Below, piece after piece: positions 1,437-25,514 of a DNA stretch of 41,966 bases; position 1 is the stretch's first letter, and the number at the start of each line of letters is the position of its first letter. This stretch comes from Deltaproteobacteria bacterium (GTDB taxonomy: Bacteria > Myxococcota_A > UBA9160 > SZUA-336), in the NCBI GenBank assembly GCA_016875225.1, contig VGRW01000025.1, positions 1-41,966 on the forward strand, given 5' to 3'. Made by a program: the position numbers and the translations under genes. The notes below the pieces were generated by a model. It saw only the letters and a program-made list of their open reading frames with translations, had not been told where the DNA came from and made no database searches.

Positions 1437-1509
1437 CCCGACGAGCCCTCCTCAGCGAGCTAGCCCGCGGAGTGGCTCTGGAGCGAGAGGGAAGGGACCT
1501 TTCTCGCTT

Positions 1510-1538
1510 TTGAAAGAATTACCGCGTTCGCGTACGAG
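1510..1538 (+). promoter_or_regulatory. Candidate sigma-70 promoter for the response regulator gene
   Basis: TTGAAA at 1510-1515 and TACGAG at 1533-1538 are separated by exactly 17 bases, inside a locally AT-richer patch 80-100 bases upstream of the start codon. The -35 box matches TTGACA in five of six positions; the -10 box is weaker. Confidence 0.35.
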
Positions 1539-1544
1539 TTGGAA

Positions 1545-1560
1545 TGCAAGTTGTCTTGCA
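1545..1560. promoter_or_regulatory. Inverted repeat TGCAAG-N4-CTTGCA, possible operator
   Basis: A perfect 6-bp dyad with a 4-base centre lies immediately downstream of the proposed -10 box, at about the expected transcription start. That is a typical position for a repressor or autoregulatory site. The adjacent response regulator, which has a C-terminal helix-turn-helix, is the obvious candidate ligand; this link is inferred. Confidence 0.35.
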
Positions 1561-1616
1561 GCGGTCCTGAATCTTTCCGGCGTGTTACCGTGCACTTGGG
1601 GAGGCGCGCTGTCGTC

Positions 1617-2207
1617 ATGCAGACTGGACAGATCCGCGTGCTGATCGTCGAGGACCACGAACTGGTGCGGCGGTCGCTCGCGAGCGCAGCGCGCACCTGG
1701 GGCGGCGAGGTGCTCGAGGCCGGCTCGGTTCGCGACGGTCTCGATCAGCTCGAGCTCCGCCCGGACCTGGTCATGGTCGACGTGATGCTCCCGGACGGGA
1801 GCGGCCGAACGGTCGTCGAGAAGGCCGTGACGATGCGGCCGGCGCCGGCGGTGATCGCGATGAGCGGCGAAGCGTCTGCGGAGGAGGCCTTCGAGCTCGC
1901 CCGGCTCGGCGCGCGCCGCTACCTGCCCAAGCCGATCTCGCTCGAAGACCTGGCCGCGGCCTTCGAGGCGACCCTCGCCGACCATCCCGACCTCGCGCCG
2001 GTGGTCGCCGCGCATGTCGGTCACACGCCGATGCGGCAGGTGCTCGAGAAGGTGCGCGGCGTGATGGTCGACGAGGCGCTCGCGCGCGAGAACGGAAGCC
2101 GCAGCGGCGCGGCGAGGCGACTCGGCGTGAGTCGGCAGGCCGTGCAGCAGGCGGTGCGGCTGATCGAGCTCGCCCAGGCCCGGGGAGAGCGCCGCGGACG
2201 CGAATGA
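1617..2207 (+). CDS. Response regulator, receiver plus Fis-type helix-turn-helix
   Basis: This 196-residue protein has an N-terminal receiver domain: acidic pocket VEDH, phospho-acceptor D55 in LVMVDVMLP, and the conserved lysine in YLPKPIS. A short C-terminal DNA-binding segment (about residues 145-190) ends in a Fis-like helix-turn-helix, GAARRLGVSRQAVQQ. The size and layout resemble the RegA/PrrA/ActR group, which usually answers a membrane redox-sensing kinase. The ATG at 1617 was chosen because GGGGAGG lies 12 bases upstream and the receiver begins six residues later; a longer frame upstream lacks such support. The partner kinase follows directly. The inverted repeat at 1545-1560 may be its own target. 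The regulon is unknown. Confidence 0.85.
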   Translation: MQTGQIRVLIVEDHELVRRSLASAARTWGGEVLEAGSVRDGLDQLELRPDLVMVDVMLPDGSGRTVVEKAVTMRPAPAVIAMSGEASAEEAFELARLGARRYLPKPISLEDLAAAFEATLADHPDLAPVVAAHVGHTPMRQVLEKVRGVMVDEALARENGSRSGAARRLGVSRQAVQQAVRLIELAQARGERRGRE

Positions 2208-23384: not shown

Positions 23385-23971
23385 AACTTCACCTCGGGCG
23401 GTTTCTCCGCGCCGCCGGTCGCCTCGAAGGTCGGCCGCGGCTCGGCGCCGAGCAGGAAGCGCGCGGTCAGGTTCGTCGGGAAGAAGCGCACGAGCTTGTT
23501 GTACTCGGCCACCGTCTCGACGTAGCGCTTGCGCGCGACCGTGATGCGGTTCTCCGTGCCCTCGAGCTGCGCCTGCAGGTCGCGGAAGCCCGCGGTCGCA
23601 GTCAGCTCGGGGTAGCGCTCCGACACGACGAGAAGTCGCGAGAGGGCGCTCGAGAGCGATCCCTGCGCGGCCTGCAGCTTCGCGAACGCCTCCGGATCGT
23701 CGAGAACGGTCGCGTCCATCTTCACGCTGGTCGCGCTCGCGCGCGCCTGGATCACCGCCTCGAGCGTCTCCTTCTCGAAGTTCGCCGCGCCCTTCACGGT
23801 GCTGACCAGGTTCGGGATCAGATCCATCCGCCGCTGGTACTGGTTCTGCACCTCGGCCCAGGCGGCCTTCACGTCCTCGTCGGCGCCCTGGATCGAGTTG
23901 TAGCCGCAGCCCGAGACCGCGAGCGCCAGCGCGACGAGCGCGCAAGCCATCGAACGCTTTGGGTGTTTCAT
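23381..23971 (-). CDS. lemA: LemA-family lipoprotein
   Basis: The protein is 196 residues long. The N-terminus is a lipoprotein signal (ACALVALALAVSGC, lipobox VSGC) after a basic start MKHPKRS. The rest is the LemA four-helix bundle: AWAEVQNQYQRRMDLIPNLV, EKETLEAVIQARASAT and a long terminal helix ending in YNKLVRFFP. LemA proteins are membrane-anchored helical proteins of unsettled function, often operonic with TPM-domain proteins, as in this case. ATG at 23971 has little ribosome site, but a TACCCT box six bases upstream could give a leaderless message. The divergent selenoprotein-like gene starts 51 bases away. Confidence 0.92.
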   Translation of the reverse strand: MKHPKRSMACALVALALAVSGCGYNSIQGADEDVKAAWAEVQNQYQRRMDLIPNLVSTVKGAANFEKETLEAVIQARASATSVKMDATVLDDPEAFAKLQAAQGSLSSALSRLLVVSERYPELTATAGFRDLQAQLEGTENRITVARKRYVETVAEYNKLVRFFPTNLTARFLLGAEPRPTFEATGGAEKPPEVKF

Positions 23972-24022
23972 GCGGCCAGGGTAGCTTGCTACGCTGGGGC
24001 CCGCGATCGGATGGAGGAACGC

Positions 24023-24364
24023 ATGGCCAGGCGAATCGACTGGTACTACCAGCGCAAGAGTTGAACGAGCTGTGTGCGGGCGTCCAAGTTCCTGGACGCG
24101 AACAAGCTCGTACCGGTCGAGACGGTCTCCGCGAGCAAGAAGCTCGGCAAGGCGGATGCCGCGCGGCTGGCGAAGGCGGCGAAGCAGGTGATCGTCGCGA
24201 AGGGGAAGCAGGTCACGCGCTTCACCCCGGGCGGCAAGGCGTCCGAGGAGATCGTCGCGGCGCTTCTGGGTCCGACCGGAAACCTGCGCGCTCCCACGCT
24301 CGTCGTCGGCGACAAGCTCCTGGTCGGCTGGAACGAAGAGGCCTACACCGCCGAGCTGCTTTGA
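24023..24364 (+). CDS. ArsC-like thioredoxin-fold selenoprotein, in-frame TGA read as Sec14
   Basis: ATG at 24023 has an excellent ribosome site (GGAGGAAC, 24014-24021) and opens MARRIDWYYQRKS, then TGA (24062-24064), then TSC and 96 further codons in the same frame to TGA at 24362. Read through, the product has 113 residues with U14-x-x-C17 on the first helix, in the place of the C-x-x-C of ArsC/Spx-like thioredoxin folds. A late GPTGNLRAPT (cis-Pro P91) and LLVGWNEEAY complete the family pattern. I recall that this small ArsC-like family includes Cys and Sec versions. A nested hairpin directly after the TGA fits a bacterial SECIS. The role is probably thiol redox chemistry; the substrate is unknown. 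Conventional calling would keep only the part from GTG 24074. A sequencing error (TGC to TGA) is the main alternative. Confidence 0.82.
24065..24111 (+). promoter_or_regulatory. Putative bacterial SECIS element
   Basis: Starting on the first base after the TGA, ACGAGCT (24065-24071) pairs perfectly with AGCTCGT (24105-24111). Inside, GCGTCCA (24080-24086) pairs perfectly with TGGACGC (24093-24099) and leaves the 6-base apical loop AGTTCC. The loop begins 22 bases after the TGA and has G as its second base. Both agree with the bacterial SECIS rules as I recall them (loop 16-37 bases away, a G among the first two loop bases). It would bind SelB with Sec-tRNA. The whole element lies in coding sequence. 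Confidence 0.75.
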
Positions 24365-24371
24365 GCGAGCC

Positions 24372-25514
24372 GTGCCGGTTTCGCGTCTAGAGCTTCGCGA
24401 GCATCTCGTCGCGGAGCTGCTTCCACTCTGGGAACGGCACGGCCTGGATCGCGTTCGCGGCGGCTTCTGGAACCGGATCGGCCCCGATCTACAGCCGCTT
24501 CCCGACGGGCACAAGCGGCTGCTGGTCCACGCGCGCCAGATCTTCTCGTTCACGCTCGGCGTGGAGCTCGGGGCGGGCGATCGGATTCGGGCAGCGGTCG
24601 AGCACGGGCTCGAGTTCATGCGCGCGCGCTTCTGGGACGCGCGCAACGGCGGCTGGTACCGGACCACCGACGACGAGGGCACGCCCCTCGACCGGCGCAA
24701 GGACCTCTACGACCACGCGTTCGCGATCTTCGCGCTGGCGCACCACCACCGCGTCTTCGGCGCGCCCGAATCGCTGCGACTGGCGCACGCGACGCTCTCG
24801 CTCGTGCGCGAGCACCTGCGCGATGCGGCTTGCGGCGGGTTCTTCGAGGGCGCGAGCGAGGACTGGAGGCCGATCCACGGCCCGCGGCGGCAGAACCCGC
24901 ACATGCACCTGTTTGAGGCGCTCCTCGCTCTGCTCGAGGTCGCGCCCGGCGACGTCGCGAAGCGCGAGGCGCGCGCGCTGGTCGGGCTGCTCCGCTCACG
25001 CTGGCTCGATCCGGACAGCGACGCGCTCGGCGAGCACTTCGATCCCGGCTGGAAGCCGCTCGACGGCGACTCCGGTCGCGTGGTCGACGGGGGCCACCAC
25101 TTCGAGTGGACCTGGCTGCTCGATCGCTTCGCCGCGCTCGAGTCCGACGACGCGATCCGCTCGCTCGCCACGCGGCTGCTCGGGTTCGCGCGGCGCTTCG
25201 GCGTCGATGCCGATGGCGGCGTCTTCGACCAGGTCGACCGCGGCGGAAGGCCGCTCGAGACCGGCAAGCGCCTCTGGCCGCAGACCGAGCGCGTGAAGGC
25301 GCTGGCGGCCCGCGTTCGCGCGAGCGGCGACGCAGATCTGCGTCGGGAGCTCGAAGCAGGGCTCGCGTACTGTTTCGCGCGCCACGTCGATCCGGCCACG
25401 CGCGGCTGGCACGAGCAGCTCGACCGCGAAGGTCGGGTGCTCTCGGCGGCGCAGAACGCGACCAGCGTCTACCACATCGCGCTCGCCCTGGACGAGGCGG
25501 GCCGGGCGCTCTAG
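24372..25514 (+). CDS. AGE-family epimerase/isomerase
   Basis: This 380-residue protein is a full-length (alpha/alpha)6-barrel of the N-acylglucosamine 2-epimerase family, which interconverts sugars at C2 or isomerises aldoses and ketoses. Family hallmarks visible are RLLVHARQIFSF, DLYDHAFAIFALAHHHR, NPHMHLFEALLAL, GHHFEWTWLLDRF and WPQTERVKAL; the histidines in these are the candidate catalytic and substrate-binding residues. It resembles the mannose isomerase/cellobiose epimerase side of the family, but the substrate is not defined. The GTG start is 7 bases after the stop of the selenoprotein gene, so the two are probably co-transcribed. No other sugar genes are nearby. Confidence 0.85.
   Translation: MPVSRLELREHLVAELLPLWERHGLDRVRGGFWNRIGPDLQPLPDGHKRLLVHARQIFSFTLGVELGAGDRIRAAVEHGLEFMRARFWDARNGGWYRTTDDEGTPLDRRKDLYDHAFAIFALAHHHRVFGAPESLRLAHATLSLVREHLRDAACGGFFEGASEDWRPIHGPRRQNPHMHLFEALLALLEVAPGDVAKREARALVGLLRSRWLDPDSDALGEHFDPGWKPLDGDSGRVVDGGHHFEWTWLLDRFAALESDDAIRSLATRLLGFARRFGVDADGGVFDQVDRGGRPLETGKRLWPQTERVKALAARVRASGDADLRRELEAGLAYCFARHVDPATRGWHEQLDREGRVLSAAQNATSVYHIALALDEAGRAL

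Follow-up and report, generated by a model that had tools for sequence, protein, structure and literature searches.

The gene described here occupies positions 24023-24364 of the forward strand in the window, by which we mean the whole stretch of 41,966 nucleotides that was analysed. It sits between an opposite-strand open reading frame (ORF) with a TPM domain and a GlcNAc 2-epimerase-like ORF that starts at GTG 24372, seven bases past its stop codon; neither of these hints at its function. From ATG 24023 the frame runs through 13 codons to a TGA at 24062-24064, and then through 99 sense codons to a TGA stop at 24362-24364. Read through the first TGA, the motif at this point is U14-T-S-C17. 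The features of the locus are as follows.

24013..24017, + strand: GGAGG ribosome-binding site, 5 bases ahead of the ATG, read from the sequence
24023..24364, + strand: ArsC-family (NF041106) selenoprotein gene, 113 codons (24023-24361) plus the TGA stop at 24362-24364
24062..24064, + strand: TGA for Sec14, the first position of U-x-x-C; the aligned codon is TGA in 51/54 homologues and TGC in L063 and L069
24065..24111, + strand: bSECIS element in the mRNA (outer stem and apical hairpin), from folding, published constraints and conservation
24071..24073, + strand: TGT for Cys17, the proposed resolving cysteine, unchanged throughout 50 aligned homologues
24074..24076, + strand: GTG, the first start codon past the TGA, where from the sequence an ordinary gene caller could wrongly start
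24080..24099, + strand: apical hairpin, stem 24080-24086 with 24093-24099, loop 24087-24092 (AGUUCC), with G-U at 24088-24089

An earlier note on this DNA had listed the ribosome site, the ATG, the TGA, the 99 codons, C17 and GTG 24074, and its coordinates and description of the gene are exact. An open frame split by a TGA proves little by itself, because this GC-rich DNA has many such frames: in the window, a simple count yields 31 frames with an ATG, a later TGA and at least 90 more codons. What goes beyond chance is a full-length family match across the TGA, a GC3 of 0.85 on the 5' side of TGA 24062-24064 and 0.91 on its 3' side, a TGA that is conserved across many genomes, and a conserved hairpin.

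The downstream GlcNAc 2-epimerase-like ORF is common to the window and one relative, and a histidine-phosphatase-like ORF, identified by reading its sequence, lies near the gene in one clade. Beyond close relatives, no recurrent neighbour was found in the 54 homologue loci collected, 30 of which have about 1.5 kb per side. Our search for a phage relative likewise found none.

Family membership and selenocysteine machinery

The read-through protein matches the NCBIfam model NF041106 (ArsC_rel_Se_1, 'ArsC family (seleno)protein') with 112.4 bits against a curated cut-off of 85 bits, covering profile positions 1-107 of 107 and spanning the TGA. When the contigs of the source genome were searched directly, the NF041106 match contained one TGA. 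The same protein gave weak matches to Pfam ArsC and Pfam Glutaredoxin, both under their cut-offs. The earlier note had warned that a caller starting at GTG 24074 would lose the active site, which is correct, and had called the gene hidden; because NCBIfam holds a model of the family, it is hidden solely from callers ignorant of that family.

The family is already present in published selenoprotein lists. A 2026 selenoprotein catalogue and review has NF041106 as "arsenate reductase-like protein, UxxC" (PMC13188914) and refers back to the 2008 Global Ocean Sampling survey, a reference that we placed in the list by the numbers next to it. Among the entries of the 2008 survey is "Arsenate reductase 2, cd03032, UxxC" (PMC2398784), and from the citation and the motif we infer that it describes the same proteins as NF041106. 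Our gene has in common with the NF041106 family a full-length, above-cut-off match, the UxxC motif, the in-frame TGA and the bSECIS, and we found no difference of substance; it adds a further member to the family, with 43-70% identity to the homologues that we collected. It is a genuine selenoprotein gene of a kind already known.

The source genome (3.87 Mb, 182 contigs, 97.8% complete, with the window as contig C25) encodes the machinery that recoding requires. We found tRNA-Sec on contig C7 (75.6 bits, anticodon TCA), and the best matches to SelB, SelA and SelD on contigs C59, C28 and C36, respectively. The window itself contains no tRNA gene. The earlier note was therefore probably right that no selA, selB, selC or selD lies in the window, and the absence of selB and tRNA-Sec from the genome, which it had named as an argument against recoding, does not apply. 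The SelD gene (L014 1501-2427) has its own in-frame TGA, in GGGUARKLG, where GGGU is the usual Sec/Cys site of SelD; it is a second selenoprotein gene in the source genome.

Conservation of the TGA codon and of the bSECIS element

We collected 54 homologue loci, comprising relatives and records titled Myxococcales, Acidobacteriota, Planctomycetota, Gemmatimonadota, Wallbacteria, Eisenbacteria and others. A TGA stands at codon 14 in 51 of them; two (L063 and L069) have TGC (Cys) there, and one (L065) has GAC (Asp). The earlier note had proposed to look for Cys opposite U14 in homologues, and L063 and L069 show it. C17, W7 and R11 are invariant in the alignment of 50 homologues. A sample of the phylum gave 48 above-cut-off matches in 47 of 284 genomes, and all 48 contain exactly one in-frame TGA. 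Within the window's class, the gene is present in 40 of 60 sampled genomes, always in the TGA form.

Each of the 11 TGA-type genomes tested from other lineages has tRNA-Sec. Among the genomes with non-TGA forms, that of L063 (Cys) is without a detectable tRNA-Sec, and those of L065 (Asp) and L069 (Cys) have one. In five of the 40 relatives with the gene, tRNA-Sec was not detected; gaps in these draft genomes are the likely explanation, because all five have SelA. We also considered whether presence of the gene tracks tRNA-Sec within the class and rejected this, since tRNA-Sec occurs in 35/40 genomes with the gene and 15/20 without it; tRNA-Sec is common in the class anyway.

Some loci and genomes depart from the general pattern. 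L065 (5001-5333, Planctomycetota, JAJDEO010000020.1) has Asp in place of Sec14, keeps Cys17 and has no SECIS hairpin, so that position 14 holds something other than Sec or Cys in one lineage or more. L069 (5001-5333, uncultured Gemmataceae) is a Cys (TGC) form in which a SECIS-like hairpin persists, and its genome has tRNA-Sec. At L076 (G012:C167, at a contig end) the gene copy is frameshifted after the TGA and is either a pseudogene or an assembly error. Finally, one genome from the genus of the source genome (G001, 95% complete) is missing the gene, a detectable tRNA-Sec and SelA; judging from it, loss of the entire Sec trait may have occurred inside this genus.

Several related frames were seen in passing. 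A small group consisting of L073 (G246:C40), L074 (G186:C80) and L075 (G250:C130) has the pattern M..ITFYGRA-U-TGCRPVREFLAR...FLG..GTLRAP, in which TGA occupies the Sec position and is followed by a hairpin-like GTGCGAGAGTTTCTCGC that is the group's own. As found in the genomes, these three score 54-63 bits against NF041106 (cut-off 85), and L073 read through scores 69; judged by their sequences, they are possibly a sister selenoprotein subfamily without a model of its own. At L077 (G091:C8, approximately 1458-1772, minus strand of the locus) we noted a frame that resembles Spx/ArsC, LYWKST-U-TTCRDARGF, and whose in-frame TGA falls on the CxxC position; it scores 52 bits against TIGR01617, under the cut-off, and is a candidate Spx-like selenoprotein. 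In the ArsC-like frame of L078 (G123:C82), a TGA lies four codons ahead of the Cys (LY-TGA-KSTCTTAR), and this TGA is probably not Sec.

Another line of evidence is the RNA hairpin that follows the TGA. Published limits for bSECIS elements are a loop of 3-9 nt, an upper stem of 4-16 bp, a G in the first two loop positions, a distance of 16-37 nt from the UGA and a minimum free energy (MFE) of at most -7.5. Our sequence falls within these limits: it has a 6-nt loop with G in second position, a 7-bp stem and a loop 22 nt past the TGA, and the 61-nt region as a whole (RNA 24056-24116) folds with an MFE of -25.5 kcal/mol (z -3.0). An Rfam search over 23900-24500 gave no match, which says little given that bacterial SECIS elements are very variable.

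As a control, we generated 1000 synonymous recodings of the region, drawing codon usage from the remainder of the same genes. A hairpin run of at least six pairs is present in all 49 distinct TGA-type sequences, and the recoded sets show it in 13% of their sequences on average and in 29% at most; because this control treats related sequences as independent, it is the strength of the excess that counts and not a P value. G24-U25 is found in all distinct TGA-type sequences, where synonymous recoding would lead us to expect 68%. For the window sequence alone, the length of the apical hairpin is not exceptional under the same recoding (P 0.09); exceptional are the energy of the whole region (P 0.003) and the conservation across sequences. 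The stems covary between lineages: L024 and L034 have GCA...GAT and L029 has GCC...GAG where the others have GCG...GAC, and planctomycete sequences have wholly different stems. Of the non-TGA forms, L069 retains a 6-bp run, which suggests a recent change from Sec to Cys, and L063 and L065 do not.

These results bear directly on the reading in which the TGA truly ends translation, or stems from a sequencing error or from mutation in a pseudogene, with at most a truncated protein made from GTG 24074. The abundance of TGA-split frames in the window, as counted above, is what one could cite for it. However, the TGA stands at the same codon in nearly all homologues, across many genomes; the 13 N-terminal codons are conserved, including the invariant W7 and R11; the hairpin is kept beyond what the protein code needs; and the truncated product would be without the first strand and residue 14. 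We regard this reading as scarcely credible. The TGA at 24062-24064 is recoded as Sec, a conclusion that we hold with near certainty, and the earlier note's claim of a real selenoprotein is borne out by computation on four counts: the Sec machinery of the genome, the Sec/Cys alignment, the conserved bSECIS-type hairpin and the same TGA in many genomes.

Structural relatives and probable activity

The AlphaFold2 model of the protein has a mean pLDDT of 93.6 and places UxxC at the N-terminus of the first helix (residues 15-26). Its nearest solved structures are Spx and YffB, both by profile (Spx E 2.4e-8) and by fold (TM about 0.54). Spx of Bacillus subtilis (PDB 1z3e, 3gfk) has the thioredoxin-like ArsC/Spx fold in common with our protein, along with the L-R-x-P and VG(Y/F)NE segments, and Sec14/Cys17 align with its CxxC, with U14 on the first Cys. 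The two differ in that Spx has Cys where our protein has Sec, LRRP where ours has LRAP (the second Arg is replaced by A90), and 131-132 residues against 113. YffB (PDB 1rw1, 2kok) has a similar fold and, like our protein, is missing the ArsC arginine triad, although identity is only 16-18%. YffB is a proposed glutathione-dependent thiol reductase, and the Brucella protein has a single Cys (PMC3169414) where ours has UxxC.

The resemblance to Spx raises the possibility that the protein is a Sec-based redox switch that would bind a partner, such as RNA polymerase, and would not catalyse a reaction. Spx is the closest family of solved structures by both sequence profile and fold, and U14-x-x-C17 occupies the place of its CxxC. 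The protein falls well outside the Spx/MgsR family, however, with 22.2 bits against TIGR01617 (cut-off 75.05), the second Arg of LRRP is A90 here, and the fold similarity is moderate. We consider such a switch very unlikely. A broader form of the idea, that the whole family would be an Spx-like Sec redox regulator or adaptor outside Firmicutes and not an enzyme, with the invariant LGPTGNL-x-x-P loop as a putative partner-binding surface, strikes us as distinctly unlikely.

The family names (ArsC in NF041106, arsenate reductase-like in PMC13188914) and the sub-threshold Pfam ArsC match point instead to a Sec-containing arsenate reductase. E. coli ArsC belongs to the same superfamily, and its nucleophile position corresponds to ours, but it scores only about 1 bit against the family profile. 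Its arginine triad (Arg60/Arg94/Arg107), described as essential (PMC3169414), is not preserved in our protein: Arg94 aligns with A90, and there is no conserved Arg in the region of Arg107. A conserved Lys, K60, lies near ArsC Arg60, in a part of uncertain alignment. Among the neighbours that we examined, we recognised no ars gene. Because the arsenate-binding triad is not preserved, the protein is probably not an arsenate reductase, an activity that we consider highly unlikely for it, and arsenate is probably not its substrate. The label 'ArsC-like' used in the earlier note thus holds for the fold only.

The best explanation, to which we assign a probability of about 0.93, is a genuine selenoprotein of the NF041106 group in which UGA14 is read as Sec by way of the bSECIS and which acts as a selenol/thiol oxidoreductase. 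We infer the last part from the nearest structures being Spx and YffB, the position of U14 on the Spx Cys and the missing arginine triad; taken separately, thiol/disulfide-type oxidoreductase action is somewhat favoured by the fold and the motif. In the proposed mechanism, the bSECIS hairpin starting just past UGA14 would direct recoding, and SelB with Sec-tRNA(Sec) would read the codon as selenocysteine, so that the product would be expected to carry selenium. If the protein is a catalyst working in the reducing direction, Sec14, which sits where the first helix begins, would use its selenol to attack an oxidised substrate such as a disulfide; the resulting selenenylsulfide would then be resolved by Cys17, following the pattern of other U/CxxC thioredoxin-fold reductases.

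For the family, the conserved hairpin means that its SECIS is under selection in the window's class. For this genome, one hidden selenoprotein gene is confirmed and its gene model mended, where ordinary annotation would drop the active site.
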